Shown: positions 3,790 to 24,400 of the stretch, one piece after another
Layout: every line of letters starts with the position of its first letter
How positions within the stretch are numbered: position 1 is the stretch's first letter
Origin: Phoenix dactylifera
Lineage: Eukaryota; Streptophyta; Magnoliopsida; Arecales; Arecaceae
Length of the DNA: 64,000 bases
Assembly: GCF_009389715.1 (NCBI RefSeq)
Contig: NC_052407.1
Location: forward strand, 6,358,475-6,422,474
Direction: 5' to 3'
Position numbers and translations under genes: made by a program
The notes under the pieces: model-generated
What the model saw: only the letters and a program-made list of their open reading frames with translations
Told to the model about the DNA's origin: nothing
Database searches by the model: none

Positions 3790-4345
3790 GAGTGAGCTTA
3801 GCTGAAGGAGGTCCCGGGATGGCCCAAGACGTCTACTTAGTTGTTGATCTTCTCTGAAGTCCTACTATAATGAAATTCTGAATGAGCTCGGTTGAAGGAG
3901 GTCCTGGGTTGGCCCGGGGTGTCTCCTTAGTTGTTGATCTTCTTTAGAGTCTTGCTCGAGAGAAATTCTGAGTGAGCTTGACTGAAGGAGGTCTTGGGTT
4001 GGCCCGAGGCCTCTCCTTAGTTGTTGATCTTCACTGGAGTCCTGTTTTAGAGAAATTTTGAGTGAGTTCGATTGAAAGAGGTTTCGGGTTAGCCCGGGGC
4101 ATCTTCTTAGTTGTTGATTATCTTTGGAATCCTGCTCTAAAGGAATTCTGAGCTCGACTGAAGGAGGTCTCTGGTTGGCCTGAGGCATCTCCTTAGTTGT
4201 TGATCTTCTTCGGAGTCCTGCTCCAGAGAAATTCTAAGTGAGCTCAGCTGAAAGAGGTCTCAAGTTGGCATGAGGCATCTTCTTAGTTGTTAATCTTCTT
4301 CGGAGAGAAGTTCTGAGTGAGCTTGACTAAAGGAGGCCCCATGCA
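3790..4345. repeat. About 90-bp tandem repeat, six to seven copies
   Basis: The phrase GAAGGAGGTC..GGGTTGGCCCG..TTAGTTGTTGATCTTCT..GTCCTGCTC..AGAGAAATTCTGAGTGAGCT recurs at about 3803, 3893, 3983, 4073, 4157, 4247 and 4330. The spacing is 90, 90, 90, 84, 90 and roughly 80 bases. Because 90 is a multiple of three, the minus strand stays open over several units (3865-4188). Copies differ by about 10 to 20 percent. The array lies between the antisense ORF and the integrase remnant. Tandem arrays in this region of Tat-lineage elements are known and have been proposed as seeds of satellite DNA. Confidence 0.8.
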
Positions 4346-5520: not shown

Positions 5521-5703
5521 GGCACAAGTATGGCGCATCCCAAGCAAGAAAATACAAGAAACTGCAGTGAAAACAACAGAGGGGTCGACTCATGCTGATC
5601 TGGGGTCAACCCCTGAAGAGTTGGGATCGACTCATCCAGAGCTGAAGTCAACCCCAGAATTGGGCAGCTAGGAGTTGTGGCCTTTTCTCTAGTACCAATC
5701 TAT

Positions 5704-12431: not shown

Positions 12432-15400
12432 ATGAAGGAGGTGTTCATCTACCAAAAGGGCCGATTCCGAGTGACCGAAGAGGTTGATCCCGACTACTAC
12501 GCCCCCCCGCCGGCGCCGGCGCCGCCGGAGTCCTCTTCCCGGACGGATTTTACACCCCGGCCTCCGACGACGTCGGGCCTCCCCCTCGCCTGCCGGATAG
12601 TCGGCAGCGCTCCTCAGCCCGCCCCCCTCGCCTACCCGATTGGCAGCAGCCCTCGTCGTCCCGCCAGCCGGATCACCCCCAGAATGCCGATCAAAACCTT
12701 CCGGACGCCGACGCCCCGAGGTTATCCCAGAAGAGGAAGCAGTCGCCTGGGCAGTTGGCCGGAGAGGGAGAGCATAACCTAGCGCCGCCGGTCACACAAA
12801 CCCCGCCGGCCGAGGACAGCCTGGGGTTAACCGAGAAGAGGAAGAAGTCAACGGAGTTGTCTAGAAAAGAAGTCCAAGAACAACGACCCTCCTTTGTCCA
12901 AACCCCCCAACCCGAACAGCAGCAGCAGCCGGCGATCTTGCACCACCCGGAACCCCAACAGCAGCAGCAATCTTCGCCGTTCCCTTCGTTTGTTCAGCAG
13001 CCGGCGATCTTCCAAACCCTCCAACCCGAACAGCAGCAGCAGCCGGCGATCTTGGACCTCCTCCAACCCCAACAGCAGCAGCAATTTTCGCCGTTCTCTT
13101 CGTTTGCTCAGCAGCCGGCGATCTTCCAAACCCTCCAACCCGAACAGCAGCAGCAGCAGCCGGCGATCTTGGACCGCCCCCAACCCCAGCAGCAGCAACA
13201 ATTCTCGTCGCTCCCGTCATTTATTCAGCAATGTTCGCCGTTCTCTCCGTTGATCTTCCAATCCCACCCACAAATGGCGTTCGCCTTCTCCACTCCTCAA
13301 CTCCAACAACAGCTGCCCTCCCTCTTTCAAACCCTTCAACCCCAACAGCAGAAGCAGCCGTCGATCTTCCAGACCGCCCAACCCCAACGGCAACAGCAGC
13401 CGTCGATCTTCCAGACCCCCCAACCCCAACAGCAGCCGTCGATATTCCAGCCCCCCCACCCCCAACAGCAACAACAGCAGCCGTCGATCTTCCAAATCCC
13501 TCAACCGCAGCAGCAGCAGCAATTCTCGCAGTTGCCTTCGTTCGGTCAGCAGCCGCAGCAGCAGCAGGCGCCGCAGTCGCAGCAGCAGGCGCCGCCGCCG
13601 CAGCAGCAGTTGATGCTGTTCACGGCGGATGGTTCGCCAACGAGTAATAATACTAAATTTGTGGATTTACATCCGGATTCGCAGAAGCTTCTGCTGCAGA
13701 TCGAGTAGGGGTTTCTTGGCTTCTTGTTTATGCTTTCTTGCTGAAATTTGGCTTTCTTTTGCGTTAGGTTTTATGAATTTTGGTTACAGGAGTCTTCTTT
13801 TTCTCAATGGCTGTTGCTTTCTTGCCCTCTTTCAAGATATTGTGGGTCATATGCCTTCTAGATTTCTTTTCCTTTTTTTTCTTCCTCACTTTGTTGGTTT
13901 ATAGGGAAGAAGGAAGAATGTTTCTGATATGTTTGCATAATTTGCACTGGGGTTTCGATATTTGTTTCAGAAACAGGCTTTCTGCTCCTTTCCTGTCATG
14001 CAGGTTCTTTATCTTTTTTATTGTCTGCATTGTATTTAGTGTCTTCTGTTGTGTTTTCCTTTCAGTTTTCTTATTTGAGAGGAGGGAAAAAAGGAGTGCT
14101 TTTAAATTCTTTGCATCGTTTCAGTTTGGGTTTTTATACTTTGTTTTGGAAAGTGAATTTTGTTCATCTTCTTTCATGCAAGATTCTTCTGCAATATGAT
14201 TTCCTTCATTTCTCTTGTCTTTATTGACTAAGGGTAACCATAGATGTGGTTCATGATGCAGGGAGCGAATTCAGGAGTACAGGGCCGAGAGCGAGAGGCT
14301 GGATCAATGCTTCCGACTTTATGATTCATCAGTATCAAGTGACCATTTCGAGCTTGATGCTAGTCGTATTCTTCAGGTTTTGCCATTATCCTTTCACCTT
14401 GTTTTGTCCATTGCAGTTTTGTGAATATTTGAGCTTTTATATATATCTGTATCATTAATCTTCCCCTTTTTACATGTCATGCTGGATATATCATTTCATT
14501 GTTTGCTTAGTCTGAGGATGACATTATTAGTGAATTTCATATAGAAAAGAATGCGCATTTTTATTGGGTTTACTCTACTTTCCAAATAGTTGTATAAGTC
14601 GAGGTACACTGTTGGGCTATTTTAAATTGAATAGCTCAAATATTTTTTTCAATGTTCATTACAATAATTACTTTGTATATTTGTATAGACTTGGAAGCAT
14701 GGAGCTGGAAGCACATCTAATTGAGAATTGAAATTTGGACGGAACATTTTGATTTTACATGTTTCATATTTGTAAATGGGAATAAGAATGGGAGAGGCTT
14801 TTGGAAACTGGCCCACCACCATAAGTAAGACATAGATACCCTACCTAAATCAAATTATTTGAAGAAAATGTGGATGTTCACTTAAAATTTGTTGCTTTAT
14901 TAAATGAAATAATCCTATGTATATTTGAGCGCATTCTTGTGAAAACCCATGCTTTTGCGTGTGACAAATGAGTTCTTCAAATGAAGAGAATGTACAAACA
15001 TCTTACTGCAATTTAAATTCTTCTGTTGATGTCCTAAATAGGGAGGTAGACTGTACTATGTTCGTATTCAAGAACATTAGAAATCAAGAAGACAACAATG
15101 TGCACCGTTTTCCATTTTCATATTGTAGACAAATATAGATCTTTAAACAACGAGTCTAAGTCATGTAGTTTAGTGTTCCATGGTTACTGGGGTAATGTTG
15201 TCATGAATAATATAAAAAGTCTGGTTCACTCGTCCACTATGGAGGGTACCATTTGTTAGCACTATAAAAAGAAGTACCTTCTTTTCTTAAATAGTTTAGC
15301 AAGGCTGTTCGACCATTTACTTTTGGTGTGTTGACCATATAAAGAAACACTTCTTATTCATGAAGGGTTGATGGATGGAGTTTAATGTTTTAAAACAAAG

Positions 15401-18400
15401 TTGCCTAGGCACCCATGTCCATGTTCTTCATCATATTTGAATATGGAGGAAGAGATTGATTTATGTGTTGGCCCTTTTTGGATGTCAAATGGCTAATCGG
15501 GGGTAAATACTTTTAACTCTAGGTAATCATCCTTTATTCGGTTACCCATGGGATATTGATATCCCTTGTTTGGTTGACGATTGAGGATTAGTGGATCAGT
15601 TATGGAAAAAAGTGAAAGAGTAAGAAGGGAGAAGAGAGAGTTCTGGTGATTAGACATATTCCGCCTTCCACCATGAAATATACTTAACCAAGGTATGTGA
15701 TTTTTTAGGGTGTTGACTAGATAAACTTTAAATACCACCTTTTTGCTTGTGCATGGCTAGTTAAGTGGATAACCACCACTTAACCACCCTGATGACCCAA
15801 AGATTGATTCATAAATTGATTTTGATGATCACAAAACCTTGAAGTATAGATACTAATGCTTATGTTGCAAGGAGAAAGATATTTATTTTGCAAGGAACAT
15901 AGCAAGTTGGGAGAACACAAGAAGGCCTCCAAAGCTCTCAAGTTGGAAGAAAGCTACAATTTATTGGCCCAAAGTTTAAAGTTCAAAGGATTCAAATTGG
16001 AGGAGTAAAATCAAAAGAAAAATTCAAAAGAACAGTCTTCGAGTCGACTCCAGTGGAATTCGAGTCGACTCCGGAGAAGTATGAGTCGACTCCGGAGAAG
16101 TATGAGTCGACTCCTAGGAGTCACAGGCAGAAAAGTCAGAGAGCAGTTTTCGGGTCTGAGATTCGAGTCGACTCCAGTGGAACGCGAGTCGACTCCGATG
16201 GTTGGTAGGTCGACTCCAAAGAAAGCAAGAGTCGACTCTCAGCGGAACACAAGGAAAAAGTCAGAGAGCATTTTTGGGACTCTGAGATTCGAGTCGACTC
16301 CCGCATTGCACGAGTCGACTCCGAGACTCCGCGACCATCAACAGACAGAAAACCAAGTTACTGCCTCTGAGATTCGAGTCGACTCCCAGACAGTTCGAGT
16401 CGACTCCAAGGCAGCGCGACCCCAAAAATGCAGAGGATCAGTTTTCGGGCTCTGAGAGCCGAGTCGACTCCAAGAGAATCCGAGTCGACTCGAGGAAGAA
16501 AATCAGAAAGTATGTCCTCTGGATTCATGGGATGAGCCGACTCCGAAGATGCCAAGTCAGCTCCAGATGTTGGCGAGTCGACTCCGGGTTAAGTCGAGTC
16601 GACTCCCAGTCAAGGCATGCACTTTAATTCAAATTTGGAACAGTAGCCGAGTCGTCTCCAGTAAAGCACGAGCCGACTCCTGCAACAGGCGAGTCGACTC
16701 CTGATCGCGCGAGTCGACTCCGATCCCAACGGTAACATTGTCAGGAAATGCAGACTGTGTCCAACGGCTCTTTTTCTTGTCTCTAACGGCTATATTCTTG
16801 TTTCCACGCCATCTAAAGCTATAAAAACAAGAAGAGAGCTAGGGGAGAAGGCATGGAAGTGGGAGAGAACTTTTAGGGAAGAGATTCCAAACAGATTACA
16901 AGGGAAATCTCCCAAAAGCACAAAAGGGCCATTCAAAGTGAAATAGAGGGAAGAAGAGCATCCAAGTGAATCCCAAAGCTTCCTCTCCATCCGTGTGCTG
17001 CCTCAGTGATCCTCCACTTCGTGCCAAATCAGAAGAGGGTCAAGTAAAGAAGAAGCCGAGCTCCTCCATCTTCAAAACTCGTTTGAGGGCTTCTCTTTAC
17101 TCTATTTGTTTATATTGTCATATCTGCTTGTTTAAGAAGCTTTGATTTGTTTTTATTCTTTGTTTTAATATCTTGTAACTTGATTCAATCAAGGGATTGA
17201 ATCAAGGGGTTAAAGGTTTGTTGGTGAGCCAAAGGGAAAACCAACGGTGTAAGGTTTGTTGGTGAGCCAAAGGGAAAACCAATGGGATTAAGGTTTGTTG
17301 GTGAGCCAAAGGGAAAACCAACGGGGTTTAGGTTTGTTGGTGAGCCGAGGGTAAAACCAACGTGTAAGGGTTTGATTGTGATCCCGGGAAAACAATCGGA
17401 GTGGTTCTAGTCGGTGAGCCTGGGAAAACCGACCGAGTTCGTTGTGCGCTCGTAAAACAACAAGTTGGGTTGTGAGCTTGTAAAACAACCGGCTGTAATC
17501 GGTAGGATTATAGTGAAATTCCCAAGAGGTCTTGGGGAGTGGATGTAGGTGCTGGAGTGCACCGAACCACTATATGTCCTTTGTGTTTGTAATGCCTCTA
17601 GTTATTGTCTAACTAACACACTTACTTACTTAGATAAATTGCTTGCTTAATTCTTATCCGCACATCCTTTAGTTGCAAGCATATTTAATCAAGTCGAAGT
17701 CTATACATCAAACCCTTGCTAAGTTTAACTTTCACTGTGCATCTATACAACTTAGCATAGTTAATCAAAAAGTTTTAGAAGTAGCATAAAAGTTTTGAAA
17801 GACCCAATTCACCCCCCCTCTTGGGTTGTATCTACTGGGCAACAAGTGGTATCAGAGCAGGTGCTCAAATATTATTTGTAGTCTTAACCGACTAGAGCCA
17901 AAGATCATGACAACTCAAATAGATAGTTTTCTAGGAGAAGGACAATCAATTGATACACCTCCACTGTTTAATGGTATAAACTACCCACATTGGAAAATAC
18001 GCATGCGCATTTTCATTCAATCACAAAACTATTATCTATGGAAAATCATAATAAATGACCTTCACACACTCTCTCATATTAATGAGAAGGACTTAGCACA
18101 ATTAAATGCTAATGCTATGAACATATTATATTGTGCTATTCAAGAAACAAAGTTTAATGAAATTTCTGCATGCTTATCTGCTAAGGAGATCTGGGATACT
18201 TTAGAAAATATTTATGATAAATCTCAGATTAGCTCTCATATGCTTCAATTATTAATTTTTGATATCATGTCTATATGTGTATTGACTGACTTATACTTTT
18301 AGAAATTGTTTCATGGTTTGCTCAATCTAAAATATTTCTATGGCTGTATCATAACCATGAAATACACAAGTATATGATTAAAACTCTGATTTAGAATGAC

Positions 18401-21400
18401 TTGTGAGAAGCTACGAATTCTTGGGCATAATGAAAATAGTGTTTGCATGATATACCTCTATACGATACATTTCATTATTTCTTTATTCTGCTCTTTCATG
18501 TAGATTACTTGAGAATAACAAAAAGAGAGAGAGATAAAGAAAAGAAAATGGATATTATTCAAGAGAAGTAAAATCCAAGTAGAGGCAAACACTTCAACCT
18601 TAAGGAAAAGCAAAACAAACTTAATATATTCGACACATTTGTGAGACTTGTGTGAGCTTTCTTTTGGAAGGAATAAAATCCATAATTAATTACACTTAAA
18701 CAGGGAGTTTTTGAAGTAAACATTTTAACCTTTCTATATTGCTTATCATAGGGATGGTGCCAATGGGGAGGCTAGTGGTAGTACCCGGCACTATTTGACC
18801 CAACTATTCGGTGTAGGGCATATTAGGGACGGCACAAGAGGGAGGCTAGTGGTAGTACCTCGTGCCCCTTCCCAACTCCACCGGATAGGGAGCAAATAGA
18901 GTATAGAGCATAAGAAAGTTATAAATGAAAAACAAAGTAAATGAAAGTAGAATTAAGTCAAATTTTTAATCACTTGAAAACACACTTTAAGGATGAAATC
19001 ATTGCAAGATTATATTTAAATAGGGGGAGTTTATTTGAAAAGAATTGATTTTGATCCTTGACATTCTTGTACTTAGTATTTTAATGCATGACTTAACACA
19101 TGGTATATTTTGCATATGGTATGATGTCTTGATTTATGGATTCTCAATATTTTGTAATGTTTCATACTTGGACAATTTGATTGAATGTTTGAATTGCTAC
19201 ATAACATCTTTTGTTTAGTTTTATTGAAAAGAAATTTCAGATTTGTCATTCACAATCATTGTTAAAATCTGAAAGCTAAATAAAATTGCAGAAAGGAGAA
19301 GAGAAGAACATCTCTATTTAGGAAAAATAAACTGATATTGATCTATCTTTCTACTTGCCTAACTTTGATACATAATGTCCTAATACTTGTTAAAATATCC
19401 TTTATTTTGTATCGAAACTCAAAATTAAACACAAAGATTCTGAAAGTGCCTTAATGTTATTGAAATATGTATTTTTCAATCGTAACAATTTAAGATGAGC
19501 TACATTGTGAAAGATACATATCTCATATTATGACTTAGAAAGCTTCTATTGAAAATCCTATGTAATTCAGAATCCGATTTTGTATAAAAGTTTAAACTCC
19601 ATATGATTACTAAATAAAATGTTAATGTAAGAAAAACAGAATTTATTTTGATTGCTCCGATACGCATCCGAAACATATCATTTCTTATCTTCAAAGTATA
19701 CTAATTTTGATTCAAATGATGTGTCTTACGATGATCTTGATTGCAAGTAAATATTTTTAAAATATATGACTTTATTTTAATATTTAAAAAATTTTTTGAG
19801 CTTCATGTATACATTGCTGAAGAACTGTGATTAAGAAATTGAGTTCTATAAATACACATACCTCAATGATCATCTATATGTTTTTCTCTCCTACATTCTT
19901 AGAAACTATCATCAGAATATATATATATAGAGTGAATACTATAAATTTTGAATAATTCTAGATCACTCTACATTCTCGATAACATAGAATTTCAGTTTTA
20001 TTCACGTTTATTATTAAATTCTGAAATTCAACCAAAGAAAAGAATGATTAAAGAAGAATGCATCTTTTGAGGGGGAGCTTTAGATATTCAGTATCTTATC
20101 CTAAAGAAACTTTAATTTGATGCATACCTTGAATTTTATGGATTGATTTTGATGAACCTCCTTATATTGCAAGACATGCTTTAATTACCTTGAGATGAGT
20201 TCTATAAAGGCTGTCTTATCTCAAACCTTGAGTCTTATGAAAATGAGCTGAAACTTATAGAAAATATATTTTTGAGATTGACAATTTTATGAACATTATC
20301 TTCAAATTCTAAACTCTTAAATGGAATGATCAATAGAGGGGGAGAAAGAAAATTTCAGAAGGAGAGGTCTCACGGAACTTAATTACATAAATCTATAGAA
20401 GAGGGAAAGAATACTAAATGAAAAGTGATCCTAATACTCTCCAATATGTATCATCTGAAATTTAAATCTGAAAATCTTTATGATACACCTTGAGGCATGT
20501 TATTTGGTTAATATATCTTCTGCACAAATCATGAACCAAATTGCAATTCAAATAGTTGATCTTAAGAGCCTCTAATTTAATGAAAAAAAGGGGAGAATAA
20601 CGTGTTAAATTTTCTTGAGTATCTCGTAGAAAATCTATTTTGGAATTCACTAATGAGTCCTAATTGGCTTGCTCTTTAGAACTTCAATATTGTGCCAATT
20701 CATATTTTTATATATGTATCAAATCGTGCTTATTTTCTAAAGGAATAAAAGAAAGTCCTTAAAAGAGCTCTAAGATATATCATAAATTGCATGAATTCAT
20801 ATTTTGGTATTTGTGCCCCAATGCTCTTATTATCATAAAAAGAACTTTGAAGTCATGATCCAACATGATGATATGTTTTTCAAGTATATAAGTTTTGATC
20901 TTTTACTCTGAAAATCAATTAAATTGCTCTCATGTTGATAAAATACTTAATAGATTGGGCAAACGTTCTTCAATGAACAAGCTTTCATACTTATTATTAA
21001 AGAGAGGTTAGATTTACACTCATGTTTTTCCTTGAATATCATTTGTGGTACTTCTTGAATTAACCTAAGGAAGATTCCACCTACACTTGATTAGAAAACT
21101 ATCTGTGGTATCAAATTAGAAAATCTCTTGAATTCACACTCGATGTGTTCTGATCTGATCTTTGTACTTAATGTTTCACTATCTTTTTGATGTTGTCAAA
21201 AAGGGGGAGAAATATCTAAGTATATGCTATATACTCAGAATGCTTTATTACTTTGAATTGAATACAAATCAGCTTAAAATTTAAATATGTTGATTGTGTT
21301 AAGCTGATTAAATCTAAAGCATTATCATGAAGTATGTTTTTAAATATATATGTTTTCTACTTCATGCAACTTAGCTATGTATTACTTCTAGAAATCAATA

Positions 21401-24400
21401 TCTTTTATATTGCATATACTCCAAGTTTTGTCATCATCAAAAAGGGGGAGATTGATGACCCAAAGATTGATTCATAAATTGATTTTGATGATCACAAAAC
21501 CTTGAAGTATAGATACTAATGCTTATGTTGCAAGGAGAAAGATATTTATTTTGCAAGGAACATAGCAAGTTGGGAGAACACAAGAAGGCCTCCAAAGCTC
21601 TCAAGTTGGAAGAAAGCTACAATTTATTGGCCCAAAGTTTAAAGTTCAAAGGATTCAAATTGGAGGAGTAAAATCAAAAGAAAAATTCAAAAGAACAGTC
21701 TTCGAGTCGACTCCAGTGGAATTCGAGTCGACTCCGGAGAAGTATGAGTCGACTCCGGAGAAGTATGAGTCGACTCCTAGGAGTCACAGGCAGAAAAGTC
21801 AGAGAGCAGTTTTCGGGTCTGAGATTCGAGTCGACTCCAGTGGAACGCGAGTCGACTCCGATGGTTGGTAGGTCGACTCCAAAGAAAGCAAGAGTCGACT
21901 CTCAGCGGAACACAAGGAAAAAGTCAGAGAGCATTTTTGGGACTCTGAGATTCGAGTCGACTCCCGCATTGCACGAGTCGACTCCGAGACTCCGCGACCA
22001 TCAACAGACAGAAAACCAAGTTACTGCCTCTGAGATTCGAGTCGACTCCCAGACAGTTCGAGTCGACTCCAAGGCAGCGCGACCCCAAAAATGCAGAGGA
22101 TCAGTTTTCGGGCTCTGAGAGCCGAGTCGACTCCAAGAGAATCCGAGTCGACTCGAGGAAGAAAATCAGAAAGTATGTCCTCTGGATTCATGGGATGAGC
22201 CGACTCCGAAGATGCCAAGTCAGCTCCAGATGTTGGCGAGTCGACTCCGGGTTAAGTCGAGTCGACTCCCAGTCAAGGCATGCACTTTAATTCAAATTTG
22301 GAACAGTAGCCGAGTCGTCTCCAGTAAAGCACGAGCCGACTCCTGCAACAGGCGAGTCGACTCCTGATCGCGCGAGTCGACTCCGATCCCAACGGTAACA
22401 TTGTCAGGAAATGCAGACTGTGTCCAACGGCTCTTTTTCTTGTCTCTAACGGCTATATTCTTGTTTCCACGCCATCTAAAGCTATAAAAACAAGAAGAGA
22501 GCTAGGGGAGAAGGCATGGAAGTGGGAGAGAACTTTTAGGGAAGAGATTCCAAACAGATTACAAGGGAAATCTCCCAAAAGCACAAAAGGGCCATTCAAA
22601 GTGAAATAGAGGGAAGAAGAGCATCCAAGTGAATCCCAAAGCTTCCTCTCCATCCGTGTGCTGCCTCAGTGATCCTCCACTTCGTGCCAAATCAGAAGAG
22701 GGTCAAGTAAAGAAGAAGCCGAGCTCCTCCATCTTCAAAACTCGTTTGAGGGCTTCTCTTTACTCTATTTGTTTATATTGTCATATCTGCTTGTTTAAGA
22801 AGCTTTGATTTGTTTTTATTCTTTGTTTTAATATCTTGTAACTTGATTCAATCAAGGGATTGAATCAAGGGGTTAAAGGTTTGTTGGTGAGCCAAAGGGA
22901 AAACCAACGGTGTAAGGTTTGTTGGTGAGCCAAAGGGAAAACCAACGGGATTAAGGTTTGTTGGTGAGCCAAAGGGAAAACCAACGGGGTTTAGGTTTGT
23001 TGGTGAGCCGAGGGTAAAACCAACGTGTAAGGGTTTGATTGTGATCCCGGGAAAACAATCGGAGTGGTTCTAGTCGGTGAGCCTGGGAAAACCGACCGAG
23101 TTCGTTGTGCGCTCGTAAAACAACAAGTTGGGTTGTGAGCTTGTAAAACAACCGGCTGTAATCGGTAGGATTATAGTGAAATTCCCAAGAGGTCTTGGGG
23201 AGTGGATGTAGGTGCTGGAGTGCACCGAACCACTATATGTCCTTTGTGTTTGTAATGCCTCTAGTTATTGTCTAACTAACACACTTACTTACTTAGATAA
23301 ATTGCTTGCTTAATTCTTATCCGCACATCCTTTAGTTGCAAGCATATTTAATCAAGTCGAAGTCTATACATCAAACCCTTGCTAAGTTTAACTTTCACTG
23401 TGCATCTATACAACTTAGCATAGTTAATCAAAAAGTTTTAGAAGTAGCATAAAAGTTTTGAAAGACCCAATTCACCCCCCCTCTTGGGTTGTATCTACTG
23501 GGCAACACACCCCATTACCAGCACCCAAACATGGCCTAATTGTTGCAATTACCCAGTTGACTTATATCTTACGTGATATTTATGTTTCATTTTTTGGACT
23601 CAACCATTTTCTAGATTTCTACATATGTTTGTTTGTTTTTTGAATTTGTTATTTTATGGATGCCTTGATCTCCATGTTTTTGCATAGAGCCTAGATGCTA
23701 GACAATCACCTAGCTACCTTCCTACCATCTACAATCTTTCAAAACACTTGAGTGAAAAAGGATTTTGCTAGTTACATTCACTTGTGATGATGACCATGGC
23801 TCTCATAACTCTTATAATACAATCAACCAGCCATGTGTGATTCCAATCATCTTTTTAGCGTGAAGTTTAACTATTAGGCATTGAAAAATATCCCTTATTT
23901 ATGCAAACTTTTTTTATAAAAACAGTTATCCCTTGTCATGTCCAAATCCCAACCCTTAGCTAAGAAACAAGATCCTTAAATGCTTCATAATGATGTGGGA
24001 GAAGGTGAATAATGTGTAAGAGTTCTTTCAGCCTATCAATCAGGCCTAGTCCTTGTTCTTAATTGTAATGTCCGGGCCCACAACCTACTAGGCCCAATAA
24101 GAAATAGGCCCAGTTAGGGGTTTGGGCCCAAATTTTTACTGTGGGCAGTACTATCAGAGTGGCAATCGGAAAGAGGTTGCCACCTCATGCCGGGAAGAGA
24201 AAGGATAAGGCCACAACTGGCCGACAGGGGAAGGCCACCTCATGCCCCACGTGGCAAGGCCAGGCCCAAAGGCAGAGCAAGGGGGGGCAGCTGTTAGTCC
24301 CGGAACCAGAGGGCAGGAGAGATGGGACTTCACAGAAGAAAATCCCCAGCCATGCAAACCCTGGGACGGCCACCTCACCCCCTGCTGGCAGCCGATTCCG

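Follow-up and report, generated by a model that had tools for sequence, protein, structure and literature searches.

The closest described system is that of the Sirevirus retrotransposons, in whose long terminal repeats (LTRs) Bousios 2010 reported palindromic "repeated motifs" (RMs) upstream of the TATA box (PMC2829016). In the sections of that paper that describe them, RMs were present in 13 of 21 Sireviruses, at 3 to 14 per 3' LTR, starting 200 to 400 bp into the LTR in clusters of 300 to 500 bp that mostly form CpG islands. In nine Sireviruses they also occurred in the linker, mainly before the envelope-like gene. A CGG-CCG core is their signature there, with Tnd-1 as the sole exception among the 13, the grape word is CGGTCGACCG, and classic Copia elements are described as lacking RMs. 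The same sections list as Sirevirus hallmarks multiple polypurine tracts (PPTs), AT/TG attachment bases, an inverted repeat, the junction CA/A(T or G)TGG-TATCAGAGC, a polyC signal and a TATA box in mid-LTR (PMC2829016). The role of RMs was left open in 2010, the relevant text calling for promoter experiments and giving no common binding factor. Palindromes in maize Sirevirus LTRs are described as hotspots of small RNAs (Bousios et al. 2016, via the accounts in PMC5311732 and PMC10760457), and box I of Tnt1, as summarized in PMC2829016, provides an example of a symmetric or repeated short activator site in an LTR.

The array considered here is carried by a Ty1/copia element at 15790-23507 of the window (the whole stretch of DNA analyzed, 64,000 nucleotides), with LTRs of 2055 bp. 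The first-pass annotation of this DNA had placed the array in an LTR, and the partner sequence bears this out: the 5' LTR (15790..17844, plus strand), which runs from TGATGACC to GGCAACA, is 99.95% identical to the 3' LTR (21453..23507, plus strand), with a single mismatch at 17283. Target-site duplications of CACCC, read by eye in the flanks, stand at 15785..15789 and 23508..23512 (plus strand), and together with the one-base LTR difference they point to a recent insertion. The TATA box, CTATAAAA (16819..16826, plus strand), is approximately in mid-LTR, 98 bp past the last palindrome, and near the LTR end is a polyC-rich signal, CACCCCCCCTCTTGGG (17804..17830, plus strand), which resembles the Sirevirus integrase signal when judged by the text description in PMC2829016 and not by letter-by-letter alignment. 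The terminal CA is followed by AGTGG and the primer-binding site TATCAGAGC (17845..17858, plus strand), so that the junction reads CA-AGTGG-TATCAGAGC, in agreement with the published form (PMC2829016). The terminal PPT, AGGGGGAG with AT attachment bases (21443..21452, plus strand), starts 10 bp before the 3' LTR and yields AGGGGGAG-AT-TG; further AGGGGGAG tracts are found at 19022, 20070, 20337 and 21202 (plus strand), and all five plus-strand copies in the window fall inside the element. An inverted repeat surrounds the PPT/3' LTR junction (21415..21511), with arms of 28-29 bp at ~21415-21442 and 21483-21511 that differ by two mismatches and one gap. By these published noncoding features, the element has the hallmarks of the Sirevirus type.

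Little coding capacity is left in this copy. A truncated gag of 131 codons to the stop (17907..18302, plus strand; Pfam Retrotran_gag_2, E 8e-8, on 17799-18299; start codon assigned by eye) is the only listed interior frame longer than 75 aa, and the interior is without pol, so this copy must presumably have moved with proteins made elsewhere. A relative carries RVT_2 (Pfam), and the LTR pairs of other copies are ~8.8-9.3 kb apart versus 5.66 kb here, as taken from 40 scored R-U5 matches of 4,613 first-look candidates. The sole LTR difference falls within 39-bp tandem repeats (GGTTTGTTGGTGAGCC...AAAACCAAC; 17203-17381 and 22866-23044) downstream of the TATA box in the LTR, and similar units are present at another locus (L009).

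The decamer GAGTCGACTC occurs 17 times exactly in the 5' LTR, with starts from 16041 to 16711 and the last base at 16720, and 17 more exact copies follow in the 3' LTR at an offset of +5663 (21704..22383). The 34 copies in the window compare with 0.02 expected from 100 dinucleotide shuffles. Both the interval and the number of perfect palindromes given in the first-pass annotation were exact, and its remark that many neighbors are 21 bp apart is borne out by 8 of the 16 spacings in the array, with one further spacing of 20 bp. Five additional in-register places, one to three bases off the word, are at 16207, 16534, 16554, 16649 and 16670. At the resulting 22 register sites, pairwise identity averages 0.93 for the decamer and 0.35 for the following 11 bp (composition expectation, 0.27), a contrast that taken alone is partly circular because the sites were picked by decamer likeness. 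A flanking C accompanies the decamer on one side in 17 of the 22 sites and on the other in 20. Tandem Repeats Finder returned periods of 20/21, 85 and 124 bp, showing that the spacers are not random and that the array is a degenerate minisatellite, constant only in the decamer and, mostly, the flanking C. The array forms the CpG-rich part of U3, with an observed/expected ratio of 1.13 versus 0.34 in the internal region, and 15790-16040 contains zero CpG. Elsewhere in the window, four degenerate boxes at 21-bp steps (GGGGTCGACTC, GGGGTCAACCCC, GGGATCGACTC and GAAGTCAACCCC; 5581-5655) are probably what is left of a related GTCGAC array.

Compared with RMs as the relevant sections of PMC2829016 describe them, the array is likewise palindromic, of high copy number (17, against a threshold of at least 8) and CpG-rich, and it occupies the upper half of the LTR, ahead of a TATA box in mid-LTR. 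It starts 251 bp into the LTR, inside the published range, its word has the core GTCGAC in common with the grape RM, and relatives have copies in the linker, in one case just before a long open reading frame. Unlike those RMs, it extends over 680 bp, the largest arrays hold 17-25 exact copies per LTR, GAGTCGACTC is without CGG-CCG, and the word recurs in gag as well as in one Copia element of non-Sirevirus type. The maize palindromes are similarly clustered in the cis-region of the LTR, with a word, CACCGGACNNNGTCCGGTG, that differs from GAGTCGACTC (as given in the accounts cited above), and for Tnt1 box I and further enhancer repeats of plant LTRs, PMC2829016 describes two or three tandem repeats, versus 17 here. 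An initial impression that no described LTR has this arrangement thus has to be given up, palindromic high-copy boxes upstream of TATA having been published for Sireviruses (PMC2829016). The array is a known kind of structure, a Sirevirus RM cluster, with a new word, and not a categorically new system. What is new is the genomic abundance, the number of 21-bp pairs, the quantified conservation, the copies in gag and in the linker between pol and the 3' LTR, the lack of CGG-CCG and the spacings, most of them close to a multiple of 10.5 bp; the range of elements that carry such an array is probably wider than published. Among the matches listed, papers containing GAGTCGACTC look unrelated by title and abstract and general literature on LTR palindromes yielded nothing useful by title, and searches combining date palm with Sirevirus or with palindromic LTR found nothing relevant.

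Across the 773-Mb assembly (2391 contigs), GAGTCGACTC occurs 274,308 times, about 355 per megabase, versus 393 for the reversed word, and 111,310 decamer pairs have a spacing of exactly 21 bp. Another GTCGAC palindrome, GGGTCGACCC, is present 32,036 times versus 263 for its control; boxes of GGGTCGACCC and GAGTCGACCCAA are seen in an LTR with a Sirevirus-type end (L009:1-1505). CpG-transition derivatives (GAGTCAACTC, either strand) number 4,575 and 4,761 versus 364 and 381 for the reversed controls, and these 9,336 derivatives, set against the intact words, indicate that few words have decayed by CpG transition. A scan of viral contigs for the decamer pair gave no match.

The window together with 200 kb of contig C1, 264 kb in all, holds 255 decamers in 20 clusters, whose locations we read from position, strand and identity. 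Fourteen clusters are in the LTR pairs of seven elements, three are in the linker, ~2.4-2.7 kb before the 3' LTR (L021, L023 and L028), two are in gag (L024 and L010), and the remaining one is an unassigned decamer pair (L026:3614). In L028, 250 bp separate the end of the linker cluster from a 515-aa frame (L028:2190-3737), which is at the position of the Sirevirus envelope-like gene and has a Pfam match to Transposase_32. In the two gag frames with coding decamers and ESTP repeats (L024:3-1373 and L010:3918-4520), the word is translated E-S-T-P in L024, where all six TCG codons are within the ESTP repeats, and four of the seven L010 decamers are in the open frame. Synonymous differences in gag affect 0 of 12 decamer codons versus 21 of 122 outside, both small counts.

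The relation of the array to the promoter varies among elements. In six LTRs of three elements, including that of the window, the last decamer is 96-98 bp before a TATA match. Six other Sirevirus-type LTRs, also of three elements, are without a TATA match near the array, three having their first match ~700 bp downstream and three having none in the searched stretch, which is partly shortened; these six speak against a fixed promoter distance. The array is also present in both LTRs of a second Copia type, an element of 5 kb with 942-bp repeats (L025:5325-6266 and L026:283-1224, minus strand), a 4-kb interior with a long gag-pol frame and a target duplication, ATCAA, read by eye. Eight decamers occupy LTR positions 83-334, three of the seven spacings are 21 bp, and a TATA box is at LTR position 430, ~86 bp past the last decamer. 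In the reverse transcriptase (RT) region, this element and one of Sirevirus type share 37% identity, and its PPT is AAGTGGGAGAT, not AGGGGGAG. When 742 of the 942 LTR bases were compared by BLAST to the other arrays, matches were at most 98 bp long and confined to the array or its edge, and outside the LTR there was one 107-bp match, to two linker stretches. Judged by its PPT, LTR length and total length, this single element is non-Sirevirus, and an array of this kind is probably present outside the group to which the relevant sections of PMC2829016 confine RMs.

The spacings suggest that decamers are phased on the DNA helix. Among the distinct spacings larger than 24 bp in 13 clusters, 24 of 25 deviate by no more than 2.0 bp from a multiple of 10.5 bp, the exception being 29; with one LTR per element (19 clusters), the figure is 24 of 24, in a set that left out L011 and L022 and thereby the 29-bp misfit. 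Twenty further loci, picked around decayed decamers (4 of the 20 without an intact one), gave a fit for 29 of 33 distinct spacings and 92 of 100 occurrences between 25 and 200 bp. The chance rate for such a fit is 43%. Multiples of 21 are expected anyway from unit duplication, and the fitting spacings not near such multiples include 31, 32, 51, 53, 73-75, 93-95 and 115 bp; those that fit poorly are 16, 29, 48, 60, 71 and 81 bp, with 16 occurring in the linker clusters. Many of the half-turn values represent one event followed by 21-bp steps, leaving perhaps six or seven independent events, and random draws, in which none of 20,000 and none of 50,000 reached the observed fit, ignore this nonindependence. 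Genome-wide, half-words at a spacing of 32 number 3,023 in the forward orientation versus 18 for the control.

Conservation of the word is evident between copies of the window family, a comparison less circular than the one made with the register sites. Among 12 copies, taken in all 66 pairs, decamers differ at 144 of 10547 sites (1.37%) and spacers at 2656 of 28886 (9.2%), so that decamers change ~7 times less, and disjoint pairings give medians of 13/958 (1.3%) versus 243.5/2629 (9.3%; Fisher 2e-20). Across families, five disjoint comparisons yield 8/564 versus 211/1330, and 12 between-element comparisons, which share sequences, yield 42/1756 versus 754/4239. Because a single perfect copy sufficed for a decamer place to be counted, the decamer rate comes out somewhat too low. 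In the family at large, each of 24 array stretches (722-816 bp, some cutting the array) holds 14-19 exact copies. The proposal that the word itself and not its spacers is conserved is therefore upheld, and decamers do not evolve as fast as spacers.

Whether selection maintains the word is a separate question, for which change after insertion, within LTR pairs, provides a control for mutability. Seven LTR pairs, matched on sequence identity and position and with 93% identity in the oldest, differ at 16/1175 decamer and 78/3419 spacer sites, and 17 pairs differ at 17/2775 and 105/8240 (p 0.003), a ratio of 0.48 compared with 0.15 and 0.09 between elements. A McDonald-Kreitman-like contrast of change within versus between elements gives p 0.004 and 0.0008; without the oldest pair, these values become 0.35 and 0.16, and the within-element ratio in the other pairs is 0.27. 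The contrast is less clear than expected and depends on the oldest pair; we regard selection on the word as likely, with lower mutability as a possible alternative.

The reading that we favor, at a probability of roughly 60%, is that the array is a U3 enhancer in which each GAGTCGACTC is a putative site bound by a dimeric DNA-binding protein of the host. The RM cluster would be a cis-regulatory block upstream of the element's TATA box, each two-fold symmetric word would be bound by one dimer, and steps of 21 bp, or two helical turns, would place the dimers on the same face of the DNA for joint action on the promoter. Source copies that lose sites would be transcribed less and leave fewer daughters, so the word would be renewed as the spacers drift. 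The place before TATA, the symmetry, the spacing and the occurrence in two element types, the second represented by one element, fit such a factor acting on the promoter, and the dimeric protein site suggested in the first-pass annotation stays the leading idea; that a protein binds, that it comes from the host and that it activates are steps that we infer. The copies in gag and the linker, outside U3, count against a U3 enhancer; they could be downstream or internal enhancers or could serve at the RNA level. A family-specific gag or integrase site was rejected because the word is common to elements with such divergent RT regions.

An RNA-level role, in which the palindromes form hairpins or kissing pairs for packaging or dimerization of element RNA, we consider unlikely. 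U3 is transcribed at the 3' end, the gag and linker decamers are also in genomic RNA, and the array RNA folds at -279 kcal/mol versus -230 for shuffled sequence (z -7.9; 20 shuffles). However, any palindrome array folds well, and folding energy cannot separate an enhancer from an RNA role of the gag and linker copies. None of the 20 commonest decamer differences is a paired change that keeps the palindrome, and the substitutions among them destroy its symmetry, as in GAGCCGACTC and GAGTCGTCTC. Neither the distance to TATA nor spacing close to multiples of 10.5 bp would be explained by RNA pairing.

Decidedly unlikely, in our view, is that the array is kept as a silencing target, with palindromic transcripts feeding small RNAs, decamer CpG concentrating methylation and the host recognizing the element there. 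The maize hotspots, as far as the accounts cited above describe them, and the CpG content of the array relative to the internal region are in line with this idea, and by analogy with maize, carrying palindromes may have a cost. Yet successful lineages would be expected to lose a signal for host recognition, whereas here the word is kept and CpG-transition derivatives are few relative to intact copies. Silencing is more likely a consequence of the array than the reason for its conservation. That an ordinary minisatellite was spread by slippage and recombination with nothing bound to it is improbable: the 21- and 85-bp unit copies in the spacers, the 124-bp period, the array lengths and copy numbers that differ between copies and the lower decamer change within elements, for which lower mutability alone could suffice, all agree with it, and the spacers are in this sense degenerate repeats, but slippage would homogenize full 21-bp units and not 10-11 bp, the decamer is conserved far beyond spacers that diverge ~7-fold more, and the same word with other spacers has the same place in a different Copia type.

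Returning to the enhancer reading, we offer only tentatively the further suggestion, itself doubtful, that different Copia lineages of this plant independently came to exploit one host protein, either converging on the phased palindrome upstream of their promoters or exchanging it, and that retrotransposons hold most of its ~274,000 genomic sites and are possibly a sink for it. Identifying the protein would reveal the way in which a large plant retrotransposon group is switched on and how so many sites affect the factor's normal targets. With one exact word at very high copy number, conserved among drifting spacers and shared by two Copia types, this genome is a test case. A reading of GTCGAC as a CBF/DREB variant site found no support, the sequence appearing in the literature passages retrieved as a SalI cloning site. 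Two other repeats in the window are a stretch of 36-114-bp tandem repeats rich in CAG/CAA and CCC (12897-13515), possibly a Gln/Pro-rich coding stretch, and a 90/180-bp tandem repeat with 5.8 copies of 90 bp (3790-4305).
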